A stretch of 64,000 nt of DNA. Source: Carex sylvatica. Taxonomy: Eukaryota > Streptophyta > Magnoliopsida > Poales > Cyperaceae. Below are positions 10,682 through 58,669 of the stretch, one piece after another. Position 1 is the first letter of the stretch. Each line of letters opens with the position of its first letter. Made by a program: the position numbers and the translations under genes. The stretch spans positions 62,001 through 126,000 of the forward strand of contig CAXKVR010000220.1 of NCBI GenBank assembly GCA_964058845.1, read 5' to 3'. The notes under the pieces are model-generated. The model saw nothing but the letters and a program-made list of their open reading frames with translations. It did not search any database and was not told the DNA's origin.

Positions 10682-12538
10682 CTATGACTGATTGGATGTC
10701 TCACTAGCATTACCACTTTGATTATGCTCATCCTTCTGCTTAATCCTATGACTCCCACCCTCGGGGAAGTTCTCAAGATTGGGACAATCAACACATTCCA
10801 CATACTTTAAATTCTCAAATGAGCTCCTCAGCTCAACCCAGTTGGTTTTCAAATCTTTCAAGAACTTGAGGCGCAATATCTCCACACTCCATTTTACATC
10901 GTCTTTAATTTTGGTAAGCTTTCCACCTCTAATATATAATCTCTTCAAAATTTTTAGCTTTGCAGGGTTTAGCAACTCTGATGCCTCAGTTTGTGGATAA
11001 CATCTTATATCCAACTTTTCTAGTCCCTCTGGAAAAGAGTAGGTCGTGTTCGTATAATTGTCCTTAGTTCCTCCCCATGTAATGGTTAATATTAAGAGAC
11101 TGTCCAGATCTTTTAAAGCACTGAAATCTTCGGAAACAGAACACCCGATGGCAATTCTAATGCTGAGCTTCCAAAGCTTTCTCAATTTGTAGAGATCACC
11201 TAGTTGACAGGATTGGCTTTTATTTCCCATGCTGCCAACCACGAAACCCTTCAACACCTCTAAATTAGAGAGTTCACATACCCATTTTGGCATATGGTCT
11301 AACAAGTAGCACTCTGAAATATCTAAAACCATCAGGTTTTTGAACCATCTTTTTTGTGGTAATGCCCATCTTATTAATTTTGGTTTGAATTTGGAGCTTG
11401 GTTTCTGTGGTAATATTTCCAAATTATGACAAGCCCTGAGGTCTAGTATTTTCAGGTTTTCTAGATTTCCGATTGATTCAGGAAGCTCATCAATCCTTGA
11501 AATGCCTCGCAGGCTAAGGTAGGTCACCCCTTCTCCTAACTTCTTTAAGAAATGGGTTTCGTCGACCTCGATGTGGTCTTTTGACTTTGCTTCTTCAGAC
11601 CCAGTTTCCTCCACACTGTTATGAAACTCTGTCTCTGTGTAATGCCAAGTACCAAGTTGAATCACCCTCAAATCGATCTCCTTGTTAATGGCATTTATGT
11701 CCTCGTAACTGAGGTACCTCTGGTATAGATTTAGTAGTACATTCATATTGCACTTGTTCTCATATATGTGCCAAGTACCATCTCTTTCCTCAGATATAAG
11801 CTCGCCATCCCTCTTACAGGCAAAGATCAACTGCTCATGAATTGTAGGTTTGATAGTGTATGTGTCAATTACTTGATTATGCTCTCTGACATTTACTGGT
11901 GTGAGGACACCATTGCTCACCAGAAAAGAAAAGAAGAATTCACCCTGCTCACCAGATAAAAACCCCATAGCCATCCACCAGTAAATCACTAATCTCTTCT
12001 TTATTTCTGTGTTTCCCGGGAAAATGCCAAGGCAATACAGGCACCTCATGATCTGGGGGTCGTCAAACGACTCTATAATTTTCAGAGTCATGGAGACTGT
12101 GTTCTCATCATAACTTCTATTGGATGATTCACTGTCTTCAGCTATTTTGGCTTTCTGATGCAAATCAGATGCCTTTTCACGAGCAGCCTTCGGAGGATTC
12201 GCTCCCCAATTCTGTGATAGCTGATTAATAATAACCTCTAGATCAGTTAGAGTGTGTTCATCCCATTCAGTCTTTGTATTGTTATGATCAACTAAGTAAT
12301 CAATTTGCCTTTCTATCTTCCCTAAGTAACCAATTAGCTCCATGTCTCCATTTTTTCTAATATGAAGATTATCTTTTGTATTTTGAACCTTTGTGCAAAT
12401 TTCATCGATGATTTTTTCCGTTTGTGTGTCCTTACGAACTTTCTCCCTGGCTTCGTTGAGGCGTTTCAGTAGTGGTCCAACAAGCTCATCAGCACTGGTC
12501 TTTAACTGTGCTTCCTTTTTATTGTTGCTCATAGCCAT
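10682..12538 (-). CDS. NB-ARC-lacking CNL-like resistance protein (618 aa), RPP13-like-4-type
   Basis: A single uninterrupted 618-codon frame. Residues 1-160 are charged and helical, without the Rx-N signature or EDVID. Residues about 166-195 (CLYCLGIFPGNTEI..YWWMAMGFL) match the RNBS-D/winged-helix segment of CC-NB-LRR proteins. From about residue 335, leucine-rich repeats follow (LSLRGISRIDELPESIGNL and similar) to a short hydrophilic tail. P-loop, kinase-2 and GLPL motifs are absent, so it should not bind nucleotide as a classical NLR does. The start is an ATG in good context (ACCATGG). It lies in the same orientation as the CNL gene 3.7 kb upstream. Monocot genomes encode similar proteins annotated 'RPP13-like protein 4'. 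A decoy, helper or modulator role would be inference; a decayed NLR is the alternative, but the long intact frame argues for a maintained gene. Confidence 0.82.
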   Translation of the reverse strand: MAMSNNKKEAQLKTSADELVGPLLKRLNEAREKVRKDTQTEKIIDEICTKVQNTKDNLHIRKNGDMELIGYLGKIERQIDYLVDHNNTKTEWDEHTLTDLEVIINQLSQNWGANPPKAAREKASDLHQKAKIAEDSESSNRSYDENTVSMTLKIIESFDDPQIMRCLYCLGIFPGNTEIKKRLVIYWWMAMGFLSGEQGEFFFSFLVSNGVLTPVNVREHNQVIDTYTIKPTIHEQLIFACKRDGELISEERDGTWHIYENKCNMNVLLNLYQRYLSYEDINAINKEIDLRVIQLGTWHYTETEFHNSVEETGSEEAKSKDHIEVDETHFLKKLGEGVTYLSLRGISRIDELPESIGNLENLKILDLRACHNLEILPQKPSSKFKPKLIRWALPQKRWFKNLMVLDISECYLLDHMPKWVCELSNLEVLKGFVVGSMGNKSQSCQLGDLYKLRKLWKLSIRIAIGCSVSEDFSALKDLDSLLILTITWGGTKDNYTNTTYSFPEGLEKLDIRCYPQTEASELLNPAKLKILKRLYIRGGKLTKIKDDVKWSVEILRLKFLKDLKTNWVELRSSFENLKYVECVDCPNLENFPEGGSHRIKQKDEHNQSGNASETSNQS

Positions 12539-12550
12539 GGTTTCTCAGAC

Positions 12551-13354
12551 CTAAGAAACAACAATGTTATCCATTGAGGTTAGAGGACGAACATATTATA
12601 ACATAGATAATAAAAAAAAGCTGAAATTAATATGCTTTGTTAATATCTATACTTTTAGAGAACCAGTCTTTGGTATAGTGGCTAAGGCAATGCCCTTTGT
12701 GTTGGAGGACAGGTTCGAAACCCGAATTGGAGATCCCTTGTGGATATTAATCTAGTTGGGTGGCTGGACCTCCAACTTTAATATTTGTACTTTTTTGTCA
12801 GTATTTGTGTTGTATTGATTTAAAAGAATGATATTTTAGCTAGTACATAATGAGATTATTTAGATAATATCAATATAACATCTGTCAAATTTAACAATTT
12901 TCTTAATTCAGTTGAAATTCCCAATCGAGGTTAAAATGTTTTTTTCATTTGCTTTTAATATACTACTGTTTAAAAAAATAAAATTTATCATGAATTTGAA
13001 TTTCAATATAATGGAAAATGTGATGCATAATATTTCTAGATGAAGTCAATCCATTTTGACATCTAACTTTGATTGGTTGGGTGACTATATTTCTATTAAT
13101 TAGTCATAATATTCTGATTGTCTGACGAATTTCCTTAAATAGGAAATTATGATAGATTTGAACCGTTCGGTTTAAGAAAATACTCCTACATTAATCCTCC
13201 AAATTAATTTAATAATACTATATTACATAATAGGATCCCAAATTAAAACAAACAAAAACCTTAAAATTGGCTCTGATGAGATCTAAGTACTGAATAGAGA
13301 AAGGTAATCATAAAATTAACAACGGATAGACAAAAAATGAAAGAAAATCTTTAC
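12551..13354 (-). other. Probable 5'UTR intron of the NB-less CNL-like gene
   Basis: On the minus strand a donor AATTCAG|GTAAAGA at 13354 and an acceptor TTTCTTAG|GTCTGAG at 12551 would remove 804 nt and join a leader exon (upstream to about 13560) to the exon with the ATG at 12538. This is inferred from splice consensus only. The intron contains a SINE. Confidence 0.45.
12657..12779 (+). mobile_element. tRNA-derived SINE (~123 bp) with target duplication
   Basis: It contains a Pol III A box (TGGTATAGTGG, from 12671) and B box (GGTTCGAAACCC, 12712-12723) spaced as in a tRNA-derived promoter, followed by a tRNA-unrelated body. Imperfect ~15-bp direct repeats flank it: AATATCTATACTTTT (12642-12656) and AATATTTGTACTTTT (12780-12794). 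There is no acceptor-stem pairing or anticodon arm, so it is not a tRNA gene. Confidence 0.72.
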
Positions 13355-13759
13355 CTGAATTGTATGAGATTAGTTCGCTCTCTTGTATTCAAGAATTTCC
13401 AAGTTGGTGCTCTACCATTCCGTGATTAGGTCCTTGTTCTGATTATGTAATTCTACGTTCACACCTGGGACTAAAAGTCGTGCTCGAATTCAGCTGTAGG
13501 CAAGTTCCAAGATAAGATGTTCCTCTGCATCACCAACATCAATACTGGTAAATTATTTTAGGAAAATTATTTCAATGAAATTACTAAACTTGCAAGTTTG
13601 GAGATTGAGGAAGGGAGGAAAGTAGGGAGAGAGGAAGGAATAAGAGAGAGAGATAGAGATCTTGCTCTATTTCAAAGAAATGCAAGGAAAAAAAAAAAAA
13701 GTGAGAAAGAGATCTTGCTCAAGAGAGATCCAATGATGACCTCGGGGTAGCCTGGTCAT

Positions 13760-16267
13760 TTTAATCGTGCCCTTCCCATTCGCTTCCATTTGTTAAGCAC
13801 CTATCACCAAAACAAGTTTCCTCCCAAGTACAACATAGCTGATATATTTTGTTTTATTTTTGAATAAAGATGAAGATCTAGCCTACTAACTTTTATTTAA
13901 AATTCATAAAAAATTCCATCCGAATTTCCAAACCATGAAATTATCGATGTTTTATTTCAATTGTTTAAATGATACTTGTTTTAGAGGATGAAACATTAAT
14001 TGTTATATAATGTTAACATTGTTTATCTAAAACTGAAATGCGATGAAACATTGTTATATATCACTGAAATCATTTCTCTATAAGTGAAATAATATCAATT
14101 AATTAATTTCAAAGACTATAATAAACATTGTTATAAATTTTCTGCTGACGTAAAACGTTATCTCACGCAGCGTTTTCAAGTGAACTTCAGAAACTGTTTT
14201 GCTTTAGAGAAAATTAAGTACTTTTTAAGAAAGTATTTGTGCTATAATTAAAGTTAGGGTGGAGTGAAAAATATATCGACAGAAAATCGGAAATTATTTG
14301 GCTTAAGTTTATTCCACCTTAAAGATTAAGGTCATGTTTGGTTGTAGACTAAACAGTGCAATAAGGATTTTAGACCTCACTTATTTCATTAAACGTGGTT
14401 TAATTGAGCCGGATTAAAACGGAATAAGCCGATCTTTAGGCCGGACTAAATTGGCCTAAACTAAACCATCTCTCTACGTGGTTTAATTTTAATTGAGTGT
14501 GAGGCCTAACTTTTCATTATTTTTATTATTTTTAATTACTTTTTAAGAAATATAAAATCAACAATTAATTTTATTCATTTACGTATAAGGAAACTTATAA
14601 CTTTATCAATTATAGAATCAACATTTTTTTTAAATAACATAACTTTTTAAATCAACAAAATATGCAATATAGAAAATAATTAAATAAAATATTTTTTAAA
14701 TTGTACTACAAAATAATAAAATTTTTGTTCATCAACCTAACATATTTTTGACAAATAAATTAGTACACATATAACTTTAATTAAATAATATTCATTAATT
14801 AAATACAATGTGCTTCTCTAAGATATATAATTAATTTATACATAATTCATTTTCTGGTACAATTTCGTTCAATCAAAATGAAAAGAACAAAAATACAAAG
14901 AATAGTTTTATTATTGTTATTACAAATTTTGTAGGACAAAATAATTTGTAATATCAAATCATGCCTTAAGCCATCAAATTCTTACCAAACAAGAAATAAT
15001 TTTAAGTTAAGGTATAAATACTTTAGATATCAATCAAACATAAAATAATTTAAATTGACCTAAGTTGGAATAACAAAGTTAGACCTCATTAACTTCAGTC
15101 CACTAAGTTAGGCCAGCCTAACTTTAGAAATACACCTATTAGATTAGCCATAATTGGTGGTATAAATATTTAATTTTTTTTTATAAATATGGTACTTTGG
15201 TATTGTCAATGCACTAATCAAGTCATACTATGGATTTAGTTCTGCATTTTCGAAGTTTAAACATCGATCTCAACTATTCAACATAATCTCCATATGAAAG
15301 TGTACTTGAAAATCAAATTTTAAATTTTGTTTTTTTTTAAGAAAATTTTCTATTTTTTAGATAAATAAAATCACTACTTTTGAATGGGTCAAAATCTTTA
15401 AATCAAGTGATATTCTACGTACCTACTTAAAAAGAGTATTTTTTTTTTTTTTTTGGAAATGTAAAATTTGGTTTGAAGTTCATTTCATATGAAGATCATG
15501 CTGATTGGTTTGAATCAATTGATTAAACTTTAATCTCATTTCTGTCAGAATTCTTTTTAAGAAAAACGCAAACACAAAATTCAAATTAATGATCATTTAT
15601 TATTGTTTGGTAAATGGTTAAAAGGGTATCATTGACACCCCTACATGCGTATGAGTGATTCATGTGAAATTTCATTTTGTCCAACATCTTTTCTTCATCT
15701 ATTGGTTCTTTTTTTTTATAATTTATTATGCTTTTCTTCCATCCTCTTTCGGATAATTATATACTTGGAGTCTAAATTAACAGTAATAATTATATTTTGT
15801 CTAACTATGAACATTTAAAAAAAAAAATAGAGTATTGAATATTACAACCAAAAATATATTCACAACAATGATTAAAAAAACCATACATAATGTTACATAA
15901 ATAAAAATAAGTAACAACAACCAATGCAAAATAAAATAGTACAATTAAAAATAAATAAAAAATGAAAAGTACGGACTATAGAAAATTAAACATAACAAAC
16001 AAGAAAGTAGGAAAATTTGAACAACCTCAGGACAACAAATTGAAAAGGGGAACACTCAATCATTGAGACTCAAAATCTAACCGTTCGTCTTTACTAATTA
16101 CATTCTTTTGTCTAGTCTCCTTTTATTGCTTTGCGTACTGACATCATCTTAATCCATGCAATAATTAAGAGTAGAACAATTAATTACAATGAAAATAATA
16201 GCAAGGTATATATGAGCAGCAATCAAGTAAAGAATTATTAATTACAACCAAAGAAGAGCATGAGGTC
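13760..16267. other. AT-rich spacer between the two resistance-type genes
   Basis: No gene. Around 14335-15130, GTTTGGTTGTAGACTAAA and inverted GGCCTAA-type words suggest a decayed DNA transposon, but ends cannot be fixed. 16000-16260 is the 3' flank of the CNL gene. Confidence 0.4.
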
Positions 16268-19200
16268 TCACCTTCCTATACGAACAAATGGGATATACTT
16301 AATTTTGTGTAGATCTTTATCTCCTTGCATAGATTCGTGTAGCTCACGCGAGGGGTGAGTTACTACTAACTCTTGAAGACTCGGCACCTTTTGTAGTTCG
16401 GGAAGTGCGTTCAGCCTCTTACATGCATCAATTATGAGGTGACGAAGGATGGGCATAGCTCCCTCTTCGATGTCCCAATGACATAGATTTGGCAGTTGAA
16501 TGAGCTTCAGTTTTTCGAGGTTAGGAAACCCTCCGGTTGAACAAATCAGCTTAGTTCCCAAATATGAGTAACAGCCTAAATGAAGTATCCTGAGGCTCAA
16601 CAGTTTCTCCCATATCAGCATTGGATCTTCCTCAAGGTTTGACCATATGAGCGTCAATTTGGTTAGGTTTGTTGGGAACATCTCAACACTTGGAACACAT
16701 ATATCTCTTACCCACTTTCCTTTGAGATTTAGATTTTGTATCATCCCATGACAAGGTAAGTCTGTTGTACCACCAAATGGTAGCAACCCAAATCCCGCAA
16801 AAATACCTAAGTAGACCAACTGTTCTGTCCTCCTCAGCACACCCTTGAGGTCTTGCCACATTTGTAGAACCCTTTTACTATAGGTACTTAGATAAATCAC
16901 TAACGTACGCAAGTTGATACAACATGCTAAATCCAGCATTTCAGTCTTTATATGCACATGATTAAGTGTTTGTAGTTTTGTATGCCGATCCCATTTTAAA
17001 CGGAAATAGAAATCCCGGGCACCATATAAATGTTTTAGAGTTGGGATTACGACATCCAAAACAATCTCGCCTGGCTCATGTAAATCTGACCCCTTTAAAT
17101 CAATGGTTTCTAGATTATTGAAGGAAAACTTCTTAAATAAATCCTTTGGAATCCGACAGTCTCTTAAACCCAAATACCTCAACTGTATCAAGTTCTTCGG
17201 CCACCGTCTCTTGGTAAATTTAGTCATATCTACACTCTGCAAGACCAAAACTCTAAGTCGAGTAAATCGACTATAATTTAATTTGCTAAAGCCACAATCC
17301 TTTGATGAAAATTGGCCAAAACCAAAACAGAGTAAAGAACGAGTGTTTACTGAATAAACACCATCATGTGTGAGAGTGCAAAATTGCAGTGCCGCACGGC
17401 GCGGTTTTATAGCATGTAGCTGGTTAACATTTTCGTGTTCATTTGAAAATACGGTGAAGAAGTTATTCTCTTTGGCTTTGGTGATAGCCAAATCCCGTAG
17501 AAGATTGTGCATATTGCAGTATTTACAATAACCGTTCCATGATTTTTTAGTAACTTGAATCAAGCACCTACAACAATATTTTTCATACAAATTGACATCA
17601 AAGAAGTAGGAAAATATTTGTTTATGAATAAGTTGGTATTTCTTTAAGTCAAATTAAAATAAAAAATGATGAACGCTTGGCTATATCTTACGTCCAAAGA
17701 AAGTTTTTATAAATGATGAATGCTCAGATGTATATATAAGTAGGTATTCCTTACGGAGGTCCCACCGATATGCGGTGATCGATAGAAATATAAAATATAT
17801 TTAGGAAAGTGCAAATGCTGAAATTATTATTATAAAAATTCTTACTCAGCTAATATATAAGTTACATATAAATTTTGTTTGAGTTAGATATATTATGTTC
17901 CATTATATATTTTTCTATATGGATAAAATTAAAAATATTGGTATTGTTTAACGGTGAAGCGATAAATTAAGAATATGGCTGTCCTCTTTTATTTAGGTCT
18001 AAAAACTACATCTAATACTCATAGTATATATATATTAATTTGTTATTTAGATAGTAGTATGAAAATATTTATCAATAACGCACTCTCAACTTCTAGCTAA
18101 TATACCAATAAAAATGTGTTTTTTCTATTAACGACGGGAGTATCTACACATGTGGAGGGTTTCAGATATCTACAGCAATATTCTGAACATTTCAAACTTT
18201 TTTATGCACGAATCTCAAAGGACAATATTATGAACAGGCATTGAAAAATTTTTGATCCAGCTTTATAATAACTGAAAGTTTGAGGTATGAAAGCCTACGG
18301 GCATCCACTTCAAAAAAAAAAAAAATTGGAGGTATGTCAGATGATACGGACTACGTTGAGGTGAGAGAAATTTCTGAAGAGAGCAATAGTAAGGAGCATC
18401 TCCAACGGAAATTGTTTTACAATTGCTTATTCTGACGTGGTTATTGTTATTTCAATTGCAGGAATGTACGCCAATTTCTTAAAAAGCAAATTTGCTTATA
18501 AAGCAAACGTTTCTTATTGACAGCGCGTGGCCAAAACAACTATTTCTATTCGCTGTCTGTTTTCCTCCCTGACTACGGAACCCAAAGAAAAGAAGAAGAA
18601 GAAAATGCTTTTTCTTTTTTTCTTTTTTTACTACAATTTGCTCCTCTGATCGTTTTTTGTCCAACCGATCTCTCATATTGATTCGTATTTTTATCCTCTA
18701 CATTTTAAGATCTCAATTACTTGGGTTTTCTTTTATTTTATCTCTGACGAGAATTTCAGAACGTCGCCTCCTTGGCCTACTGCAGAATTTTAGATCTCTG
18801 ACGAGAATTTCAGATCTAAATAGCTAGCGTTTTGAGAAAAAAAAATCCAAATCGTTTCTAAAATACTTGGCCTACTTGCAGAATTTTTTTTTAATTTAAT
18901 TATCTTTTTTCTGATTTGTTTATTAAGTGTACAGGGTATAACTTTCAAAAACTTTAGTCAAGTTTGAGGCTTTTGTCAGTAAAGATGTTTAAGTAAAGTG
19001 TTGTTCAAAGCTTGAATTTGGCACTATTTCCACTCCTTTTGTCAGTAGTAAAAAACAAAAAAAACAAAAAAAAACCAAAAACAAAAAAACAAAGAAAAAA
19101 AACCTAGTCATTACCAGTTTACTAAGTAAATGGTCAAAAGAACCTATGAAAAAACCCAATAATTACAACATCTAGACAATCTAAAAAACATGTATATAGA

Positions 19201-22200
19201 AGCCAACCCATCTGTTAGAAATGATTTTTTTTAATTTATAAAAAATATTATAAAATAAGAGAGAAAGATCGAGGAGCAAAGTTAGGGTGTTATGTGCTCA
19301 CCAAGAGAGTTTATTGGTGAGCACAACTCCAAAAGTAAATCAGATCGACTTCAAATGCTAAATCAAAACTGTTAAAATCCATGTGCTTCATGAGTGATGC
19401 ATGTACATGTAAAATTTGGAAGTTTCGAGTTTATTTTCTACAAAATCAAGTGGTCAAAGAAACAAATATTTTATAAGTTAATTTATAAGTTGTTTTATAT
19501 ATTCAATTTTTATCATTTATTTGATCGCTTGGCTTTGTACATAGCAAATAAACTTGAATCTTTCAAAATTTTGCATGTATATGCATTACTCATGCATGAA
19601 GTACATGAATTTCAACGGTTTGAATACGGCATTTGAAGTCGATCCGATATACTTTCGAAGTTGTGCTCAACAAATTAACCGCTTGGTGAGCACATCACAC
19701 CCTCACTTTGCCCAAGATCAAGAGTTTCTCAAATTTTTTATGTATAGAAGGATGAAATTTTACCCATCAAAATTTTAGATTGATAAAAATTTCATCGATC
19801 CAAAGTTCTTCATTTTTGGACCATTGGTTTGAGTTACAAACGAGAAGAGTGAATATAATTTTTATTTTTAGAAATTATTATTAAATAATATAAAAAATAG
19901 ATGGAATACCTTAAAATTTTGATGTACTAGAAGAATCGAGACCAATTCCAGATCCAAAGTTTGGACCGAGATTAATAGCTTGGGTCCCAAGTTTGTACCG
20001 GATTTAATGGACCGGAATTTTTAAACAGTTTTATTATCTGAACATGTTTTTCTTTGCTTCAAAATTTCTCCATATTAGAATGCGCTTGGGGACCAAATTT
20101 TACATCGTTTGAAAAAAATTTACTATTTATTTAGAATTGTTCAAAACAGGGTTTTAACATGGTAACAAAAATCTAAAAAAATAATTAGAAGTTTTCAAAA
20201 ACACTGTTTCAAAAAATTCTTAAAAAATAGTAAAAAAAAGTTACAAAAAATATAAATATTGGTCTCCAAACACATTCTAATATGGAGAACATGTTGAGCG
20301 CTTCAAATTGATAATTTGGATATTCAAAATGCAAAAATGACTTATAAGCATATACTATCATATACTTATATAAGTAGAGTAACCAACTTATATATATAGA
20401 GAGAGAGGGGTATCTTAATTAGTGCTTCACTCTTTTAAAATAAACTTTTGTCGGTAATGGATTTCTAGATCTACTATTATGTCTTGTTTAATTGGATGAA
20501 AGGCAGAGGAAAATGTTATAGTGCCGCTATTTAGAACACTGCTAAGGACCAATAAATAACATTTGTACTTGCAACTTGCAAGAGAAACAAAAATTGAAAA
20601 TGGTTTAATATCGAATTATTTTCCTGTTCAATCTGCACGCTAATAATTGTATAATATCTAGCAAGCTAAATGTTAATAATATCTAACTATGTATTAAGAG
20701 ATACCAACTAATTGCTTACACCAACATATATAACAGAAAGAATTTCTAACAAATTAATAGGTATTTGTATGAGGTACAATCCTTGACCTTTATGCATTAG
20801 AAGATACTAAATTTGATCTCCAAACACTTGATCCGCAAACCGTTCAATTTGATATCCATATTAAAATGTATTTGAGGACCAAATTTTACATATTTTGAAA
20901 ATTATTTGTTATTTTTTTAGAATTTTTTAAAATCGTTGTTTTTCTATGATCTAGAAATTTCTAAAAAATAGTGATTTTCAAAAATTCTAAATAAATAGTA
21001 TAAAAATTTCAAAAAAAATATGAAATTTGGTCTCCAAGCACATTTTAATATGGAGAATATGTTGAGCTCTTTAAATCGACTGTTTGAACTTCGAATTCGA
21101 CGGCTTACAATCTAATGTTCAAGATACATTGCAATGCACCATAGCCTATATATATATATATATAGGAATATGCTAGCATACTATGCATAGAATAGAGGAT
21201 CTCCGTGCAACGGCTCAATATTTAACTATTCAAAATTCTAACGGTCGATCCGAACCGTTCATCTTGTTCTACATATTAATATGTGTTTGGAGACCAAATT
21301 TTACATTTTTTTGAATTTTGTTACTATTTTTTAGATTTATTGAAAATCGTTGTTTTCAGCAAATCTGGACCATAAAAAAACAGCTATTTTCAATAAATCT
21401 AAAAAAATAGTAAAAAAATTCCAAAAAATATAAAATTTGGTCTCCAAACACATATTAATATGGAGAACAAGATGAACGGTTCGGATTGACCGTTAGAATT
21501 TTGAAAAGTCAAATATTGAGCCGTTGCACGGAGGCCCTCTATGCTACGCATAATATGCTAGCATGTTCCTATGCTTACAGAGGTTGGTTACTATGCTTAT
21601 ATATATAGAGGTTAGCTACTATGCTTATATAAGCATATCCCCACATATGCTTATAACTCATTATTGTGTTTCCAATGTCCAAATGGTTGATCTGAACCGT
21701 TAGATGTGATCTCTATATTGAAATATGCTTGGAGACCAAATTTTACATTTTTCTGAATTTTTTTACTATTTATTAAGCCACTTTGAAAATCGCTGATCCA
21801 ACGGTGGCTTGCAATTAGTTGGTATCCATATTAATATGTGTTTGGAGACCAAATTTTATATTTTTTGGAAATTTTTTACTATTTTTTTAGATTTATTGAA
21901 AATCGCTGTTTTTTTATGGTCCAGATTTGCTGAATCGTTGCACGGAGGCCCTCTATGCTACGGATAGTATGCTAGCATGTTCCTATGCTTATAGAGGTTG
22001 GCTACTATACTTATATATATAGAGGTCAGCTACTATGCTTATATAAGCATATCCCCACATATGCTTATAACTCATTTTTGTGTTTCCAATGTCCAAATGG
22101 TCGATCTGAACCATTCGATGTGATCTCTATATTGAAATGTGCTTGGAGACCAAATTTTACATTTTTCTGATTTTTTTTACTATTTATTAAGCCACTTTGA

Positions 22201-22443
22201 AAATCGCTGATCCAACGGTGGCTTAACAAAACAGTAAAATTAGAAGCCACCGTTGGATCAGCGATTTTCAAAGTGGCTTAATAAATAGTAAACAAATTCA
22301 GAAAAATGTAAAATTTGGTCTCCAAGCATATTTCAATATAGAGATCACATCTAACGGTTCAGATCGACCATTTGGACATTGGAAACACAAAAATGAGTTA
22401 TAAGCATATGTGGGGATATGCTTATATAAGCATAGTAGCCAAC

Positions 22444-22489
<46 letters not shown>

Positions 22490-22900
22490 AGTCTACCATA
22501 CATTGCAATGCATAGGCACCTCTGTGCATTGGACTATAAATCACCATATTCAAAGTCCAAATGACCGATCCAAATCGTTCATCTTGTTCTCCATATTAAT
22601 ATGTGCTTGGAGACCAAATTTTACATTTTTTGGAATTTTTTTACTATTTATTAAGCCACATTGAAAATCGCTGATCCAACAGTTACAGTAAAATCAAAAG
22701 GCACCGTTGGATCAGTGATTTTCAAAGTGACTTAATAAATAGTAAACAAATTCCAAAAAATATAAAATTTGGTCTCCAAGCACATATTAATATGGGGAAC
22801 AAGATGAACGGTTTGGATCGGTTATTTGAACTTTGAATCCGTGATTTATAGTCCAATGCACAAAGGTGCCTATGCATTGCAATGTATGGTAGCCGTACTC

Positions 22901-22941
<41 letters not shown>

Positions 22942-25082
22942 AATCAATTTAGTCTAATTAAAAATATATATTTATTAATTCGATTATTGGAATGTTTTTT
23001 GTAAAATAACTTGTACTCTAACTCTATTCTTATTTCTTTTGCTTCAGTTGGCAAGGTATGTTAACGAGTCGTGGATGCATACGAAAATTATTGTTTAGTC
23101 GCACTCTTATCGAAAGATTTTCTAACAAAGTATTTCTATGAGGTACAATCCTTGACATTTATGCATTAAAAGATAATAAATTTCATGCAAATATTCTGAT
23201 ATATATAAAAAGTAAATTTGTTTGGTATTATCTTTGATCATTTGTGTACGGGACAATGATTGAATTTAGAGGAGTCCTTAGAAAGGAAAAATGTTGGATG
23301 AGATCTACTGATAAGTAGCTTAAAAAATTGAACTGAAAAAGGATGTACCTTTCTACTAGCTCTTCAAGCCATTTTTTAGCTCGGTCCTCGGTTGTTCTAG
23401 CACTATCTTTCGGTACGAACCCTTCAGCCATCCACATTCTTGTAACGTGCTCTCCCGAAATCTCATAATCTTCTGGAAAAGAAGCAAAATAATGAAAACA
23501 TGGTTTGAGTTCATAAGGCAAGTCTTCATAACTCATGACTAGGACCTGCGAGCACGTCTTCCCATGTTCATCGTGCCAGTCCATGGTCTCCTCAATTGTT
23601 TTCCAGGCAGTGTAGTTGCGCTCTTTCCTTGAGAGGATACCGCTTAGCACAACTAATGTCAAAGGTAGCCCACCACATTTTTTTATTAATCTTTTGGCAA
23701 CAGTTAAGAGATCGTGAGGGTAATTCTCAGGTAGTATATGTTGTTGGAAAGCCTTTCGGAAGAGGAGAGCTATACTCTCATCGTCATTTAGGTAACGGGG
23801 TTTATATGGTTTTGTATTGCGATCTGCCACGAGAGCAACATCAACTGATCTGCTAGTAATTATCACGCGGCTGGCATTTTTTGGATCGGGTAATGCTTGT
23901 TGCAATTGCTCCCAATCACTAACCCTCCATACATCATCAAGGATAATTAAGTACCTCTTAGAGGTCAAGGATTTCTCAAGCTCGGCCTGTAAATTCTCAT
24001 CAGCTACCTCTTGGGGGTCAAGGATTGAGTAAAGAATTTTTCTGAAGATATCATTTATATTGAACTTTTGAGAAATGGTTATCCATATGCGACAATCGAA
24101 ATGTTGTTCCAATACCGCACTGTGGTTAGAAAAATGAATGGTTAGAAATGGACATCCATGTGCAACAATCGATATAAGTTTTTGTTGAATGAAAATACTG
24201 GATTTTGTTCACAATTAAAAAAATACGTGGCAGGTTGCTCTTGGTATAACGATTACAAGCAAGGTAAATGATTGCTAATAGGAATGAATAATTGAAGTCT
24301 TTCATCATTTCTTGAGAGAGGAAAAATGAAAATCTAAACGAAGGATTAAATTTGGACAGTTGACTTCCTAAACAACTAGTTGGTTTCGGATTTAGCAATT
24401 TTCTTGTTGTAGATTTTTCCACACAAAAAAAAAAAAAGACATGACTTTAGAAGAGAGATTGTGCACCTTTTGAATACTTCTAGGGCCAAGGTTGTCTTCC
24501 CGAGGCCGCCAGGACCCACAATTAAGACCACCATCCGCCTTAATATGTTTGGATCGAGCAGCAGGTTGATAATGTTCCACTTGCCATCCTCAAGGCCCAC
24601 AACTTCTGAATCATCAACATCAGTAGGATTTGTTGGCCTAGAAGGTACCGGACCAATTTGTTCATTATCAGCACCCCGAATCGTAATTCCCAAGTTGATT
24701 CGAAGCTGATAAATCTTTTTCAGATCCTGTGTGATTTCTTTCAGGTCGCCACTCAGCTTGTAAATTTTACAGGGTTTTTTTAACACATACAAATTTTACG
24801 GTACCAGGGAGGACATTGTGGATGGTTTTCTTCAATCTCAACCAGGAAGGTGTCAATCACATCTTCTATTCTGTGGGCAATGTCTCTGACTTGGTTAACC
24901 CACTCTTTTACCGATTCATTTCTGTTACTCTTGGATTCGGCATCTCTTAGATAAGGTTTGATCAAGAGAAGCTGCCAGTGCATCTGCTCCATCTGCCCAT
25001 TCACAGCTTGCAGTTTCTGAGCTTTCTTCAGCAAGGCATCAGCAAGCATTTCCAACACATAGCCCACAGCTGACTCTGCCAT
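16268..25082 (-). CDS. CC-NB-ARC-LRR (CNL) disease resistance gene, three coding blocks, one apparent frameshift
   Basis: Intracellular NLR immune receptor of the RPP8/RPP13 type. Coding blocks on the minus strand: 25082-24467, 24119-23349, 17567-16268 (stop). All junctions fit GT-AG, and the reading frame is restored across both (EVFK|S..., VE|RCLIQ). The spliced product is about 895 aa if one missing base near 24783 is allowed for. Visible motifs: Rx-type CC with EDVID (residues 73-77), P-loop GPGGLGKTT (about 190-198), kinase-2 LIILDDVW (about 263-270), RNBS-B SRVIITSR, GLPL (about 357), RNBS-D CFHYFASFPEDYEI (about 413), then an MHN variant of MHD (about 482-484) and LRRs to the end. The start ATG gives the usual MAESAV-type CC start. 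At the frameshift, ..RKICMC is followed by TAA in a TTAAAAAAA run, and the frame continues at LKKPCKIYKLSGD. This may be a real lesion or a homopolymer sequencing error; if real, the product is a 100-aa CC fragment. Confidence 0.85.
18392..18700. other. Possible transposon end (GAGCATCTCCAACGG)
   Basis: The motif GAGCATCTCCAAC occurs at the ends of several plant MITE/MULE families. No partner terminus was found, so the element is undefined. It lies in CNL intron 2. Confidence 0.25.
19274..19713. mobile_element. Foldback MITE (440 bp), 9-bp TSD, Mutator-like
   Basis: Ends GAGCAAAGTTAGGGTG and (reversed) GGGCAAAGTGAGGGTG start a long inverted repeat continuing through ATGTGCTCACCAAG and well into the element. 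Flanks AAGATCGAG (19265-19273) and AAGATCAAG (19714-19722) form a 9-bp duplication with one mismatch, as expected of Mutator-type transposition. No coding region. Confidence 0.8.
20040..20400. mobile_element. Core-family palindromic MITE, degenerate copy
   Basis: It shows the shared core (GGGGACCAAATTTTAC ... ATTGGTCTCCAAACAC ... TATGGAGAACATGTTGAGCG) and an ending like that of the TATGCTTATATAAG subfamily. Left boundary unclear. Confidence 0.55.
20810..21115. mobile_element. Core-family palindromic MITE, degenerate copy
   Basis: Inverted halves around about 20955: CAAACCGTTCAATTTGATA..GGACCAAATTTTACA on the left and TTTGGTCTCCAAGCACA..AATATGTTGAGCTC on the right. Termini are lost or not recognised. 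Confidence 0.55.
21162..21572. mobile_element. Core-family palindromic MITE, GGAATATGCTAGCAT subfamily
   Basis: A near-complete palindrome. The left end ATAGGAATATGCTAGCATA pairs with the right end ATGCTAGCATGTTCCTAT, then CTCCGTGCAACGGCTCAATATTT on both sides, then the shared core (TCGATCCGAACCGTTCATC, GTGTTTGGAGACCAAATTTT). The TA-rich flank hides the target duplication. Confidence 0.75.
21573..22020. mobile_element. Mosaic of two core-family MITE fragments
   Basis: 21590-21800 is the left half of the GGTTGGCTACTATGC subfamily, and 21825-21995 is the right half of the CTAGCATGTTCCTAT subfamily, joined inside the core near 21800-21840. This looks like recombination or nested insertion between relatives. 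Confidence 0.55.
22021..22447. mobile_element. Core-family MITE, subfamily A (complete, 427 bp)
   Basis: An almost perfect full-length hairpin. AGAGGTCAGCTACTATGC.. at the left mirrors ..GCATAGTAGCCAACCTCT at the right, the core is present in both orientations, and the centre lies near 22228 (CCAACGGTGGCTT / AAGCCACCGTTGG). TA repeats flank both sides. Relatives at 43062-43476 and 52921-53333. Confidence 0.85.
22448..22485. repeat. (TA)n microsatellite between two MITEs
   Basis: An uninterrupted TA run joins subfamily A (left) to subfamily B (right). The same A-(TA)n-B arrangement recurs at 43477-43492. Confidence 0.9.
22486..22899. mobile_element. Core-family MITE, subfamily B (complete)
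   Basis: Ends AGTAAGTCTACCATACATTG and the mirrored CAATGTATGGTAGCCGTACT, then GCATAGGCACCT on both sides, then the same core as subfamily A. It is a hairpin over its full length with no coding capacity. Confidence 0.82.
22906..22941 (+). repeat. (TG)n microsatellite
   Basis: A TATATATG run passes into an uninterrupted TG repeat directly after MITE B, within CNL intron 2. Confidence 0.9.
24120..24466 (-). other. CNL intron 1 (347 bp), with a partial copy of exon 2
   Basis: Donor AAAAG|GTGCAC at 24466 and acceptor CCACAG|TGCGG at 24120. The intron carries an imperfect copy of the exon 2 start: about 24140-24175 reads like the exon stretch at 24070-24110 (ATCCATATGCGACAATCGA versus ATCCATGTGCAACAATCGA), a local duplication next to the acceptor. 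Confidence 0.7.
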
Positions 25083-25265: not shown

Positions 25266-25650
25266 AAGAAAAGGAAAAGATAAAGAATAAGCTAGTGAAC
25301 TGGCTCCGGGGCATTGTATAGTAATTTTATCTTTGAAAAAGGAATGAAAAGATAGGCATCATTCTTTGCTTTTTTTTTTTTTCTTTGATTGATGAGTCGA
25401 TACTGGGATGACAGATATTGTTATGTGAAGAGCACAGGTTCTTTTCTTCCAAACTTGGGACTTGTATAAAGGTAAAAAGATAAAGAATAAACTAGCGTAT
25501 TGACTCCGTTGCACTGTAGTTAGTGTATCTATGAAAGAGGAATAAAGAGACAGGCCTCTTTCTTTGCTTTTTTTTTCTTTTTCTTTTCTTTTTCTTTTTT
25601 TTTTTGCCTTTTGAAGAGCACAGGTTCTTTTCTTCCAGGCTTGGCTCAGG
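25266..25650 (+). repeat. ~200 bp tandem duplication upstream of the CNL gene
   Basis: Two adjacent units share AAAGATAAAGAATAA (25278, 25478), GACTCCG/GGCTCCG..GCA, a T-rich tract, and GAGCACAGGTTCTTTTCTTCC (near 25430 and 25615). The second copy is moderately diverged. Confidence 0.6.
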
Positions 25651-26738: not shown

Positions 26739-26964
26739 GAGGAGGGATCCACTTACATCATTTTTTGGTGACACCGGATTACAACCTATATTTTCAAAGT
26801 TCAAACAGTCGATCCAAACCGTTCAACATGATAGATATATTAAAACGTGCTTGCAGATCAAATTTTATATATTTTTTAATTTATGTACTATTTATTAGGA
26901 TGGGTACAAAAATTCAATGGTATGGAAATAACGATTTTATAAAATACTTAATAAATAGTAAAAA
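26739..26964. mobile_element. Core-family MITE, subfamily C, truncated by inverted duplication
   Basis: It starts GAGGAGGGATCC and contains the core left half (TCGATCCAAACCGTTCAACATG, CAGATCAAATTTTATA). It stops abruptly at AATAAATAGTAAAA, where the NF-YC inverted-repeat arm begins at 26965. The complete relative at 52552-52920 continues past this point, so the right half was lost at the junction. Confidence 0.75.
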
Positions 26965-27917
26965 GCATATCGATGACGAGATCATATGAGGAGTTGTGGT
27001 TGCAATCAGTGGCTCGGGGGACTATCGGCAACTGGCAAAACTCTGTGTTATGTTTGTGTGTGTGTGTGTTTATTTTTAATCAGGCTCTGTTAATTTGTTT
27101 TCTGGAACATTTGCTTATTTTGTTTAGATCAGCGGAGTTTATTTGTGCTTAATTAGTTTGTCAATTTTAAGGTATTTTAAGTCTGGATATATGAAGTAAC
27201 TCTTTGAAATGCAAAAGAAGGGTTTGCTTTCGTTTTTCATTGATATCTGATACTGAGAAAAAAATTATTTAGTATAAAGTTAAGCGGTTAAAAAATATAC
27301 ACACATTAGTTAGATATTTTGATAATATTTTTTTTCTGCTCAATTTTGTACTGAATTAATTCAAAAAATTTAAAATTTTGCATGTACAAACATTATCTGG
27401 AAAGTATATCAGTTTGAATTTGTCGATTAAAATCAGTTCAATATATCTTGGAATTCTGTTCACCAAGCTCTTTTGGTTAGTAGAGCACACGTTCCAGCGT
27501 ATATTCGGTGTATTCATTTTTATTTTTCGAGTTAAAGTTTTATAATATATTAGAATTTCAAATTACAATTATACGTATTTTATTGCTGTTAGATAAACTT
27601 TCAAACTCAGACAGTCAGAATTTAAAAATATATATATATATAAAGCATAATTTCAAATTTAAACTTATAGATCAGTTTAAAATTGATTCAGTTTCGAATC
27701 CTAAAATTTGGTTATGTTTTGATCTGATCTGATTGAAAAATGCTATTAAGACCGTAGATTTTATTGTGAAATTTTAATATGTCTAACGCTAATACACTTC
27801 CCTCTGATTACATCATTTTTCTTATTGCTTTGTTTAAAAAAAAAAATTAATTTATACTAACTAATAAAATATGTAGTTTAAAGAAAAAAAATTAAATTAA
27901 TACACCAATCTTGAGAA
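26965..27917. repeat. Left arm of large inverted repeat (NF-YC 3' end copy)
   Basis: This 953-bp arm is the reverse complement of 28253-29212. In the stretches compared by eye identity exceeds 95%, with small indels in homopolymers. It starts with the last codons of the NF-YC frame (HIDDEII and stop) and their 3' flank. A 335-bp spacer separates the arms. Confidence 0.92.
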
Positions 27918-28252
27918 TAGATTGTTTAAACGATGAAAAGGAATTTTATTAATTTATCCAAATTTCTCTTTTTTTAGGAAAAATAGATTTTAAAGATGTT
28001 CAAGATGTCAGTTATTGAGATACCAACAAATTTACCGAATATATGCCAATATTTGCCTATTCAGGCTTTTGCAGTAAGTTCTTTTAGTTCTCTGCACATA
28101 TTTTTTGCCATTTTTTGCCATTTTTCATGAAATTAAATCAAATTTAGATTTCTCAAGTTGGTTATTATCAACTAGTAATTCTCCTCCAATCCACACAAAT
28201 TCCTCAAGAATAAATAATTCTTCAGTTTTCAGAGAATAATTCAGTTTTAGAT
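27918..28252. other. Spacer of the NF-YC inverted repeat
   Basis: A 335-bp unpaired centre between the arms, which would be the loop of a hairpin transcript. It has small local repeats (CTCAAGAATAAATAATTC, TTCAGTTTT) and no gene. Confidence 0.8.
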
Positions 28253-29212
28253 TTCTCAAGATTGGTGTATTAATTTAATTTTTTTTCTTTAAACTACATA
28301 TTTTATTAGTTAGTAAAAATTAATTATTATTTTTAAACAAAGCAATAAGAAAAATGATGTAATCAGAGGGAAGTGTATTAGTGTTAGACATATTAAAATT
28401 TCACAATAAAATCTACGGTCTTAATAGCATTTTTCAATCAGATCAGATCAAAACATAACAAAATTTTAGGATTCGAAACTGAATCAATTTTAAACTGATC
28501 TATAAGTTTAAATTTGAAATTATGCTTTATATATATATATATTTTTTTTAAAATTCTGACTGTCTGAGTTTGAAAGTTTATCTAACAGCAATAAAATACG
28601 TATAATTGTAATTTGAAGCTCTAATATATTATAAAACTTTAACTCGAAAAATAAAAATGAATACACCGATTATACGCTGGAACGTGTGCTCTACTAACCA
28701 AAAGAGCTTGGTGAACAGAATTCCAAGATATATTGAACTAATTTTAATCGACAAATTCAAACCGATATACTTTCCAGATAATGTTTGTACAAGCAAAATT
28801 TTGAAAATTTTGAATTAATTCAGTACAAAATTGAGCAGAAAAAAAAATATTATCAAAATATCTAACTAATGTGTGTATATTTTTCAACCGCTTAACTTTA
28901 TACTAAATAATTTTTTTCTCAGTATCAGATATCAATGAAAAACGAAAGCAAACCCTTCTTTTGCATTTCAAAGAGTTACTTCATATATCCAAACTTAAAA
29001 TACCTTTAAATTGACAAACTAATTAAGCACAAATAAACTCCGCTGATCTAAACAAAATAAGCAAATGTTCCAGAAAACAAATTAACAGAGCCTGATTAAA
29101 AAAAAACACACACACACACACAAACATAACACAGAGTTTTGCCAGTTGCCGGTAGTCCCCCGAGCCACTGATTGCAACCACAACTCCTCATATGATCTCG
29201 TCATCGATATGC
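28253..29212. repeat. Right arm of large inverted repeat
   Basis: The original partner of 26965-27917, continuous with the NF-YC gene: its outer edge (29212) lies inside the coding frame, eight codons (including the stop) from the end. The inner edge ends at TTCTCAAG (28253). It includes a (CA)n tract at about 29106-29122 that mirrors the (GT)n tract at 27055-27071. Confidence 0.92.
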
Positions 29213-29754
29213 GTTCCCAGATTGACCCCAAACAGCTGTTCCTCTTCTGTCATCGTAACACCTGGATTTGTTTCTCCGACAAAAGAATCGTGACTTTGGC
29301 CTCTTACCTCAGAGGAATTGCTTCCGGCACCACCATTGGAACTACTAGGCAAAATTAGGAACTTGTAATTGTCGACATGACAGATTGCATCGTAGATGTT
29401 GATGGTTTCTATGGTGCACTCATGATTCTCCATCGCATCGAGCCACGCGCGTAAAATGAGATCATGTATGAACATCTCACAGGCCTTTGAGAGCACAACA
29501 GGCGCTTCTGACGAGACCAACTTCACGTCCCAGTTGGCTTTCATCATCCTCTTCATGCGCGTTAGAGGTAGCTGGTGGTATTTGAAATCTCTCATCTGTT
29601 CCACCTCCTGGTTATGGTTCTTCCAAAGTATGTCAATTTGATATTGCTGATGTGGCGATAGCCCAGTGCGCGATGGTGGTGGGTATCTTGGAGACAACTC
29701 TGGTAACTGTTGTTGTTGCTGCTGTTCTGGTTGATTCTGTGATTGGTTCTCCAT
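29188..29754 (-). CDS. NF-YC-like histone-fold transcription factor subunit (188 aa)
   Basis: A subunit of the CCAAT-binding NF-Y complex; it would pair with NF-YB through a histone fold and recruit NF-YA in the nucleus. Single exon, start ATG at 29754. Residues 1-16 are Q-rich (five Qs in a row plus neighbours). Residues about 60-134 match the NF-YC core: QLPLTRMKRMMKANWDV, then SSEAPVVLSKACEMFI, then LRAWLDAMENH and the helix around IYDAICHVDNYKFLI. Compared with the family consensus (LPLARIKKIMKADEDV, LAKACEMFILELT), several changes mark a diverged, lineage-specific NF-YC. The acidic tail ends HIDDEII. The last eight codons, stop included, and the 3' flank lie in a giant inverted repeat, so read-through transcripts could fold back. 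It could be a recent retro- or tandem copy; expression is unknown. Confidence 0.85.
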   Translation of the reverse strand: MENQSQNQPEQQQQQQLPELSPRYPPPSRTGLSPHQQYQIDILWKNHNQEVEQMRDFKYHQLPLTRMKRMMKANWDVKLVSSEAPVVLSKACEMFIHDLILRAWLDAMENHECTIETINIYDAICHVDNYKFLILPSSSNGGAGSNSSEVRGQSHDSFVGETNPGVTMTEEEQLFGVNLGTHIDDEII

Positions 29755-30414: not shown

Positions 30415-31740
30415 GAACACAAGCTGGTACATTAATTTGGACAATCTTTTGTGGAAATGAAATTTGAACAAATGTAGATCAAACTTTCTGATTTTTTATT
30501 TAACAATTTAAAATTCTTAATTAAATTTTAAAATCATTCAGACCAAAGGGTTAGAAATAGAAGAGTCACAACAAAAATTTCGGGTTGCCTATGCCACACG
30601 AAAACATTAATTTAGACAATTGTAGATCAAATTTTTACCTTAAAATAGAAGATGCTTACTTTATTTATTTTATTTTATATATGTGTGTGAGCGCACACAA
30701 TCTGGTACATTAATTAATTTGGACAATTGTCATAAAATAAATTGCACAACTATATATATCAAACTTTCTGATTTCAATACAGCATTTTAAAAATCTTAAA
30801 TTTTTTTAAAAAAAATTCGGACTACAATTTTAGAAATAGAAGAATCACATTTAAAAAAAAATTGCATCACCTATGCCACACGAAAAACATTAATTCAAAA
30901 TTTTACTATAAAATTGAAGATGCTTAATTACTTCCTTTTCTTTTATTATATATTTGAGAGCGCACACACAATTAGGTACAATAATTTGGACAAATTTTCA
31001 TAAAAAAAATTGCACAATTGTAGATGAAACTTTTTAATTTCCATTTAGCAATTTAATTAAAAAAAATTATTAAATTTTTATAAAGTTCTTACCAATTTAG
31101 AAATGGAAGAATTGCAAAAAATATTTGTGCGTCACCTTTCCACACAAATAATATTAATTTAGAGGATTTGTAGATTAAAATTTTCTTTTATTATATATTT
31201 GAGAGTACGCAGACACAATTAGGTACATTAATTTGGACAAATTTTCATAAAAAAGTTACACAATTGTAGATGAAACTTTCTGATTTTCATTTAGCAATAT
31301 AAAATTTTTTGTTAAATTTTTATAAAATTCTTACCAATTTAGAAATGGAAGAATTGCAAAAATTATTTGTGCGTCGCCTTTCCACACAAATAATATTAAT
31401 TTAGAGAATTTGTAGATTAAATTTTTACCTAAAAATGAAAGATGCCTACTTCTTTTTCTTTTCTTTTTATATGTGCACACGCACACACACAATCTCGTAT
31501 AATAATTTTAACAACTTTTCATAAAAAAAATAAAAAAATCACGACTGTAGATCAAACTTTCTAAATTCCATTTAACAAGTTAAAAATCTTAATAAAATTT
31601 TCAGAAAATTCAGATCAAGAATTAATAATAGGAGAATCGCAAAACAAATATGCGCATCGCCGTGCCACACAAAAAACGTAAATTCGGAGATCTATAGATC
31701 AAATATTTACCTTAAAATGAAATATGCTCACTTCCTTTTC
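30415..31740 (+). repeat. Tandem array, five units of ~250-277 bp
   Basis: The anchor TACATTAATTTGGACAA (with variants) recurs at about 30430, 30707, 30977, 31224 and 31477. Each unit also holds a GCGCACACA-type block, ATCAAACTTTCTGATTT and CACACGAAAA..CATTAATTT. Units are diverged but in the same order, so this is an old local tandem amplification. No coding content. Confidence 0.75.
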
Positions 31741-32016
31741 TTTTCTTCTTGATGAAATACAACAGAGAGCAGTTTCTTGCCAATTGATTTACTCTCCACT
31801 CCTAGAGAGGTTTCTTTAGGGTTTGCTCCAAATTTATGAAATTAGAAGAATAGAGGAGGAAAGGTGAGAGGAGAAATAAAGGTGAATGAAAGATAATTAG
31901 AGAGTAGAAAAACTATTCATTTCTCCTCATTTTTTCCCCTTTTCTTCCTCTTATTTTTTTTTTCTCTTCAAAGAGGTGAATGAAAGATAACTGTGTGTGT
32001 GTGTGGGTGGGTGGGT

Positions 32017-32690: not shown

Positions 32691-32852
32691 GCACTTACCT
32701 GGACGGGGTCTATGAACGAACAAGAAGGTTCATGGCCTAGATCAGTGACCTCCATTGCACTTTGGAGGAGTGCTGGTCTACCATCTCCCCAAGAGGGAGA
32801 GTGGACGTCGTAATTTGTGTTAGAGGGGGTACGCGTTCGCGCGGCCCCTGCC
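32691..32852 (+). ncRNA. U1 spliceosomal snRNA gene
   Basis: The RNA pairs with pre-mRNA 5' splice sites in the U1 snRNP. Near the 5' end is ACTTACCTG, the splice-site-pairing segment. Stem-loop I has ATGAAC / GTTCAT as a perfect stem with the U1-70K-type loop GAACAAGAAG. Stem-loop II carries ATTGCACTT (U1A-type loop). Stem III is CTCCC / GGGAG, the Sm site AATTTGT lies near 32812, and a GC-rich terminal stem (ACGCG TTCG CGCG) ends at CCCCTGCC. Length 162 nt is normal for plants. Oddities: the 5' end reads GC rather than AT before ACTTACC, and the 70K loop has A where T is usual. The stem-I bases differ from common plant U1 but remain paired. With an intact promoter and 3' signal, a functional variant copy is likely; a young pseudogene is the alternative. 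Confidence 0.9.
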
Positions 32853-43061: not shown

Positions 43062-43476
43062 CAGTAGCCAATATAAGCATATTCTCACATATGCTTATAA
43101 CTCATTTTTGTGTTTTCAATGTCCAAATGATCGATCCGAACCGTTCATCTTGTTATCCATATTAATATGTGCTTGGAGATCAAATTTTATATTTTTCTAA
43201 ATTTTTTTACTATTTATTAAGCCACTTTGTAATCGCTGATCCAACGGTGGCTTAACAAAACAGTAAAATCAGAAGCCACCGTTAGATTAGCGATTTTCAA
43301 AGTGGCATAATAAATAGTAAAAAAATTCATAAAAATGTAAAATTTGGTCTCCAAGCACATATTAATATGGATAACAAGATGAACGGTTCGGATCAACCAT
43401 TTGGACATTGGAAACACAAAAATGAGTTATAAGCATATGTGGAGATATGCTTATATAAGCATAGTAGCCAACCTCT
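43062..43476. mobile_element. Core-family MITE, subfamily A, second copy
   Basis: Same body as 22021-22447, with centre CCAACGGTGGCTT / AAGCCACCGTT. Its left tip is shortened or rearranged (GTAGCCAATATAAGC instead of GGCTACTATGCTTATATAAGC); the right tip GCATAGTAGCCAACCTCT is intact. Confidence 0.8.
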
Positions 43477-43492
43477 ATATATATATATATAT

Positions 43493-43906
43493 AGTAAGTC
43501 TACCATACATTGCAATGCATAGGCACCTTTGTGCATTGGACTATAAATCACGGATTCAAAGTCCAAATAACCGATCCAAACCATTCATCTTGTTCTCCAT
43601 ATTAATATGTGCTTGGAGGCCAAATTTTATATTTTTTGGAATTTGTTTACTATTTATTAAGTCACTTTGAAAATCACTGATCCAATAGTGCCTTTTGATT
43701 TTACTGTAACCGTTGGATCAGCGATTTTCAATGTGGCTTAATAAATAGTAAAAAAATTCCAAAAAATGTAAAATTTGGTCTCCAAGCACATATTAATATG
43801 GAGAACAAGATGAACGGTTTGGATCGGTCATTTGGACTTTGAATATGGTGATTTATAGTTCAATGCACAGAGGTGCCTATGCATTGCAATGTATGGTAGA
43901 CTTACT
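43493..43906. mobile_element. Core-family MITE, subfamily B, second copy
   Basis: AGTAAGTCTACCATACATTG at the left mirrors CAATGTATGGTAGACTTACT at the right. Compared with 22486-22899 it differs by few substitutions; the right end is better preserved here. Confidence 0.85.
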
Positions 43907-43939
43907 CTATATATATATATACATATACATATATATACA

Positions 43940-44035
43940 TAGCCCATGACGCTAGAAATGCAGCAGCGCAAATACGGCATAAATGCGGCGCATGCGGCTG
44001 CCAATGCGGCCGCATTTTAAAACACTGAATATATA
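43940..44035. mobile_element. GC-rich transposon end (ATGCGGCCGCATTTTAAAACACTG)
   Basis: A GC-rich island with repeated ATGCGGC words ends in GCATTTTAAAACACTG, a terminus known from plant hAT-like MITEs. No second end is seen, so it is a fragment inside TA-rich DNA. Confidence 0.4.
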
Positions 44036-52551: not shown

Positions 52552-52920
52552 GAGGAGGGATTCAATTACTACAAAATTACCACAACTATTTTTTACATTT
52601 TCAAATTTCAATTCGTCGATCCAAACCGTTCAACATGATCTCCACAATAAAATGTGCTTGCCGATCAAATTTTATATTTTTTTGAATTTGTTTACTATTT
52701 ATTAAGTATTTTACAATAACTAGTTAAATTCAGACCATTGAATTTTGTACCATCTTAATAAATAGTGAAAAAAATTCAAAAAAATATAAAATTTGATCTA
52801 GAAGCACATTTTATTGTGGAGATCATGTTGGACGGTTTGGATCGACAAATTGGAATTCCAAAATATAGAAAATGGTTGTCATAACTTTATAGTATCTCAA
52901 AATTGTGGTAATCGGATCCT
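52552..52920. mobile_element. Core-family MITE, subfamily C (complete)
   Basis: GAGGAGGGATTCAATTACTA at the left, and (reversed) AGGATCCGATTACCACAAT at the right. The core is present in both halves (CTTGCCGATCAAATTTTATA / ATAAAATTTGATCTAGAAGC). It directly abuts the subfamily A copy that begins at 52921. Confidence 0.78.
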
Positions 52921-53333
52921 ACTATGCTTATATAAGCATATCCTCATATATGCTTATAACTCATTTTTGTGTTTCCAAAGTCCAAATGGTCGATCTGAAC
53001 CGTTAGATGTGATCTCTATATTGAAATGTACTTGGAGACCAAATTTTATATTTTTCTGAATTTTTTTACTATTTATTAAGCCACTTTGAAAATCACTGAT
53101 CCAACGGTGGCTTAACAAAACAGTAAAATCAGAAGTCACCGTTGGATCAGCGATTTTCAAAGTGGCTTAATAAATAGTAAACAAATTCAGAAAAATGTAA
53201 AATTTGGTCTCCAAGCACATTTCAATATATAGATCATATCTAACGGTTCAGATCAACCATTTAAACATTGAAAACACAAAAATGAATTATAAGCTTATGT
53301 GGGAATATGCTTATATAAGCATAGTAGCCAACC
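52921..53333. mobile_element. Core-family MITE, subfamily A, third copy
   Basis: Begins ACTATGCTTATATAAGCATA at the junction with MITE C and ends GCATAGTAGCCAACCTC. The centre CCAACGGTGGCTT / GTCACCGTTGG is intact. It lacks the outer GGTTGGCT bases at the left, suggesting truncation at the MITE-MITE junction. Confidence 0.8.
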
Positions 53334-58543: not shown

Positions 58544-58651
58544 AGTGAACAAAATGAACGGTTCGGATCGACGTTTTGAATTTTAAAATTTTAAATTTGG
58601 ACCGTATGCATATCGGGCTATATGCATACGAATGCACATTAGCCACTCTCT
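58544..58651. mobile_element. Half of a core-family MITE, nested in the foldback element
   Basis: The right half only: AACAAAATGAACGGTTCGG, TCGACGTTTTGAATTTT, then a right end ATTAGCCACTCTCT. It follows directly after a TATACATA tract. Confidence 0.65.
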
Positions 58652-58669
58652 ATATATGTATATATATGT

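Follow-up and report, generated by a model that had tools for sequence, protein, structure and literature searches.

The 3′ end of an NF-YC-like gene in Carex sylvatica is present twice, as two inverted arms on either side of a short spacer. The outer edge of the copied arm lies inside a truncated palindromic MITE, and the spacer is built largely from SecA-derived sequence. The locus is best read as an ordinary, clearly delimited scar of rearrangement that has a latent capacity for hairpin formation. Judged from the sequence, the scar probably formed when a break on the MITE side was healed by backward copying of the NF-YC 3′ end, and it would be mostly silent. The window, in what follows, is the whole 64,000-nucleotide stretch of DNA analysed; genome searches were made in an assembly of 64 Mb in 950 contigs.

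Local alignment pairs positions 26962-27917 with positions 28253-29215 as reverse complements over 963 columns, which include 20 substitutions and 7 gap columns. The resulting identity, ~97% over ~950 bp, is far above chance (BLAST E = 0). The left arm occupies 26965..27917 on the plus strand (~953 bp) and is the inverted copy of the right arm at 28253..29212, which reads on the minus strand. The first-pass annotation had placed two near-identical reverse complements at these coordinates, exact to the base, and its 335-bp spacer is the one delimited by the alignment (27918-28252). It also held the duplication to be young. The arm divergence of 2.1% corresponds to ~1.5 million years at a substitution rate of 7e-9 per site per year, if gene conversion has not acted, and the inverted duplication would on this basis be fairly young; the claim of youth stands as a relative one that assumes no gene conversion. 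The substitutions comprise 9 transitions and 11 transversions, with A/T changes making up 9 of the latter.

The right arm is the original. It contains the last seven codons of NF-YC (HIDDEII) and the TGA at 29188-29190, followed by the 3′ UTR and downstream DNA; the eight codons previously attributed to it are correct if the stop is counted. Also as described earlier, it runs unbroken into the gene, an intact 188-aa frame at 29191-29754 on the minus strand (29188..29754 with the stop) that is a single open frame and the parent of the duplicated 3′ end. Several lines of evidence identify this frame as NF-YC-like: profile search places PF00808 and PF00125 above cut-off; the protein matches solved plant NF-YC chains in the PDB (best E 1.9e-23); and among named relatives the nearest is a protein of Carex littledalei, 83% identical across 91% of the query length. 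The C-terminus is GTHIDDEII here, GTHIDDDII in the 94%-identical relative P0001 and GMCMDDNII in the Carex protein. Because the C-terminus is conserved in relatives, the right arm carries the ancestral coding tail and the left arm was copied from it, the direction that the first-pass annotation had also assigned. A degenerate tandem array at 30417-31771, with four to five copies of ~275 bp, lies upstream of the NF-YC start.

At its left edge, the repeat abuts a broken-off palindromic MITE (26739..26964, plus strand). The ~250 bases to the left of the left arm are a very abundant repeat, with at least 279 matches in the 64 Mb when 40 of 2526 candidates were scored. Comparison of 18 aligned copies identifies it as a palindromic MITE with the terminus GAGGAGGGATC, often lying within TA-rich tracts; the copy in L024 is ~390 bp long. 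In the window, the MITE ends at 26964, ~12-16 bp into its second arm, and the left arm of the inverted repeat starts at the next base. Past the point matching 26964, the complementary second arm extends for at least 120 bp in 16 of the 18 copies and for 45 bp in L034, and is missing in L035. The second arm is likewise absent from the window after 26964 (best match 8 bp), and no opposite MITE terminus occurs in the window at up to 1 mismatch. One other near-match to the terminus is present in the window, at 52552-52562 on the same strand.

The spacer is mostly a rearranged and partly inverted SecA pseudogene fragment. C30 and C801 each cover part of it, with 82-94% identity. The segment at 27943..28106 (plus strand) is a SecA exon and intron fragment 90% identical to C30, and its translation has a stop in the exon frame. 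The segment at 28126..28239 (minus strand) is a SecA-linked intron piece that is 94% identical to C801 and matches C30 over 51 bp at 82%; its orientation is reversed compared with C801 and, for the shorter piece, with C30. On C30, the exon matching the spacer adjoins four SecA_DEAD pieces (PF07517), which lie in order on the minus strand. Compared with the PDB, this exon alone gives weak matches (best E 0.017) to 23 listed sequences, all of them SecA and all aligned in one region of the protein. The C30 copy is possibly not intact either, because one of its SecA_DEAD pieces carries an in-frame TAG. As a whole, the spacer combines SecA-linked pieces of both orientations and includes a local 10-bp duplication. 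Since pieces of it match both strands elsewhere, the spacer was also considered as a second MITE, and this was ruled out by the C30 sequence, which belongs to a SecA gene. A second SecA-linked fragment, at 2927-3145 of L043 (C801), has intron sequence in common with the spacer that is missing from C30, so copying of the SecA fragment may have happened repeatedly.

The inner end of the right arm bears on the order of events. Here, the 15-nt motif TTTAGATTTCTCAAG (28246..28260, plus strand) spans the arm boundary and repeats positions 28143-28157 of the SecA-linked piece; it occurs twice in the window and has no occurrence on the opposite strand of the window. This repetition of SecA-linked sequence suggests that the SecA fragment lay beside NF-YC before the inverted copying. 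The best SecA matches diverge by 6-10%, with poorer matches at 82-84% identity as well, and the arms diverge by 2%; a SecA-first order would fit these values.

In the 64 Mb searched, no second locus with the full arm was found. Since this assembly is probably incomplete, the result holds for the 64 Mb only; for scale, text from PMC7289886 gives ~373.85 Mb for the Kobresia littledalei genome. A whole-arm search with 40 of 155 candidates scored returned at least 53 matches, of which two, the arms themselves, were full-length; no other full-length arm was found in the 64 Mb at this depth. The other 51 are all confined to arm positions 294-529; their identity is 67-85%, apart from C346 (88%, 59 bp) and C164 (94%, 31 bp). 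This part of the arm (27262..27493, arm positions ~298-529, with its mirror in the right arm) is a degenerate, dispersed and partly palindromic repeat. In the same 64 Mb, at BLAST level and with 40 of 155 candidates scored, there was neither a second gene with arm sequence nor, apart from the fold-back itself, a MIRNA-type target complementary to the arms. The NF-Y/histone-fold family occurs at 8 places in the 64 Mb, and the other 7 have no arm match. Protein search detected one distant NF-YC paralogue (43% identity over 76 residues), whose surroundings (3225 bases) yielded only four short matches to the arm, the best of 18 nt (E 0.009). The proposal that the repeat silences the parent family is not borne out: the NF-YC coding sequence within the arm amounts to 25-28 bp only, and no other gene with the arm was found in the 64 Mb.

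Truncation of the MITE, together with the SecA-derived spacer, points to break repair rather than plain gene duplication. Break repair would also fit the combination of a palindromic MITE at the edge, a near-blunt joint, a patchwork spacer and an inverted copy. In the account we consider probable, the sequence of events would involve: landing of a SecA-derived fragment beside the NF-YC 3′ flank; a later break at or near the palindromic MITE to the left of that fragment; healing of the break by reverse copying of the NF-YC 3′ flank, through fold-back or template-switch synthesis; and almost blunt joining of the new end to the broken MITE. The outer joint between MITE and left arm has 0-1 bp of exact microhomology. 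Passages of PMC11724301 describe yeast fold-back inversions that form at breaks and are captured by end joining with 0-5 bp of microhomology, a range that includes this joint. The Carex repeat resembles those events in its inverted local copy, near-blunt joint, patchwork and palindrome at one edge; in contrast to the yeast inversions, which are induced and span 2 to about 150 bp in that source, it is natural, in a plant and ~950 bp long. It is likened to fold-back events and not called one because its length is far above their 2-150 bp. Also in yeast, part of PMC10622511 describes inverted duplication driven by breaks near short inverted repeats. Here, TTCTCAAG at 28253 and its inverse at 27910 have 8 nt in common at the inner edge; these are the arm ends themselves, where cause and product are indistinguishable. 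A counterpoint to the repair account is that the MITE truncation could predate the event.

The same end state could have been reached by another route, in which a larger inverted copy formed and was then trimmed. In this case the repeat would be the remnant of a duplication carrying a whole second NF-YC, with one deletion running from the MITE interior to the last codons of the copy. The trimmed copy is a serious rival and a tentative possibility, as a single deletion would account for both the lost half of the MITE and the abrupt end of the arm; against it, the upstream coding sequence of NF-YC has left no trace elsewhere in the 64 Mb, where its one match is the gene itself. No outlying left NF-YC copy was found in this coding-sequence search. 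An assembly or sequencing artefact, either a palindromic read or a misjoined haplotype, is very unlikely. Inverted joins are a known artefact class, but a copied read would be near identical, whereas these arms differ by 20 substitutions and separate indels; the outer flanks of the two arms also differ from each other, and the spacer is a separate sequence. It is scarcely credible that a transposon or fold-back element supplied the arms as its terminal inverted repeats. Elements of the fold-back type, with long inverted ends, are indeed present here, as at 57852-58406 / 59087-59636, with paired copies elsewhere. The arms, however, are not a transposon's terminal repeats, because the full arm was detected at this locus alone in the 64 Mb rather than in many copies; the right arm also contains conserved NF-YC codons, and the outer ends lack a target-site repeat. 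The flanks ...ATAGTAAAAA (to 26964) and GTTCCCAGAT... (from 29213) have no direct repeat at the joints. A transposon with long terminal repeats was ruled out on the single place of the arm in the 64 Mb and the missing target-site repeat.

Break repair, the preferred reading, leaves a locus that may form a hairpin. The first-pass annotation predicted a hairpin if one transcript spans both arms, and folding agrees: for the minus strand from 29215 to 26962 (2254 nt), the predicted structure has -1529 kcal/mol, 937 inter-arm pairs and a longest unbroken run of 167 bp. The inverted repeat is long and near-perfect and, by this model, should be able to form dsRNA. Transcript ends bear on whether it does so. 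The first AATAAA past the stop on the NF-YC sense strand lies within the right arm (28302..28307, minus strand), ~50 nt before the spacer, in a motif scan of 27918-29187. The same scan shows weaker poly(A) variants in the right arm, among them ATTAAA at 28748 and AATATA at 28881; because there are several, a single NF-YC end site cannot be named. Plant poly(A) signals vary, which makes the AATAAA argument against the hairpin weak. The NF-YC mRNA would usually end within the right arm, and rare read-through RNA could form the long hairpin and possibly give rise to siRNAs acting in cis on the gene's own 3′ end.

An active hairpin-siRNA or proto-MIRNA locus would go further: NF-YC read-through, or plus-strand RNA from the left, would fold, be diced and regulate NF-YC. 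This is doubtful. The 937 predicted inter-arm pairs and the 167-bp run are consistent with it, and passages of PMC4687873 supply precedents, in that Arabidopsis long inverted repeats are substrates processed by DCL2, 3 and 4 and the 3′ UTR hairpin of At3g18145 yields small RNAs. Against it, AATAAA precedes the spacer on the NF-YC sense strand, the arm carries little coding sequence and occurs in no other gene in the 64 Mb, and NF-YC is intact. The arm substitutions also show no excess of transitions as under heavy methylation (9 versus 11), a weak argument with 20 changes; no methylation signature was seen in this weak test. Silencing by the inverted repeat is, on the sequence, little favoured; as a function it is possible but unsupported, and the only obvious effect would be in cis, on the 3′ end of NF-YC. 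It is highly improbable that the MITE break gave NF-YC its own 3′ hairpin with a SecA loop, whose read-through siRNAs would damp NF-YC in cis as a self-limiting feedback.

The inverted-duplication origin of plant MIRNA genes was reportedly put forward by Allen et al. 2004. Two inverted arms made of the gene's own sequence, the starting arrangement for MIRNA birth, are present here. This origin, with MITE involvement, is discussed in text from PMC3237417, and the Carex locus is alike in having an inverted protein-gene copy beside a spacer and a MITE. It differs in that the parent itself forms one of the arms and the copied sequence is nearly all 3′ flank; moreover, a separate target did not turn up in the 64 Mb at BLAST level. 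According to part of PMC13128112, proto-miRNA loci are inverted repeats that have acquired transcription. Arabidopsis IR71 and IR2039 are also long near-perfect inverted repeats that give a long hairpin if transcribed; for these, passages of PMC4687873 report detection of precursor RNA, and siRNAs for IR71, whereas the Carex repeat is known here from DNA alone. The At3g18145 hairpin (miR3440b) resembles it in occupying the 3′ terminal part of the transcript of a protein gene; that hairpin yields small RNAs (same source), whereas here the 3′ UTR would probably stop short of closing the hairpin.

If transcribed, the locus would provide a datable, single-copy start (in 64 Mb) for tracing whether, and how, a gene-derived inverted repeat that is still joined to its parent gene turns into a small-RNA locus. 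A silent locus would be a clear example of an inverted duplication with its edge inside a palindromic MITE; such elements are abundant in the window.

Inverted repeats are common in the window: 19 overlapping stretches are self-complementary with E of 1e-20 or below. Among the inverted pairs listed, the gene-derived NF-YC repeat, with one occurrence found, is the longest and most alike. The second inverted repeat with separate arms (57852-58406 / 59087-59636, 84%) is a multi-copy fold-back element with ~550-bp ends, opposite-facing pairs of which lie at several other places in the 64 Mb. Across 40 loci (219,593 bases) chosen for repeats, and therefore biased, 22 inverted-repeat rows reach at least 300 bp and 85%: 19 are self-palindromes and 3 have separate arms. 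Mutually related, palindromic MITE-like clusters lie at 20816-22909, 43071-43941, 52567-53335 and 58530-59128, and some of their units also match the MITE at 26739-26964. To the left of that MITE, 25270-25644 holds a ~190-bp tandem duplication with parts 82-94% alike, and 10682-25082 (minus strand) holds pieces of NLR-type resistance genes, with NB-ARC in 23231-24112 and LRR in 16271-17590 and 10685-12538. An Rfam scan of the window at the gathering threshold listed only U1 snRNA, a full-length match at 32691-32850 (130.8 bits).
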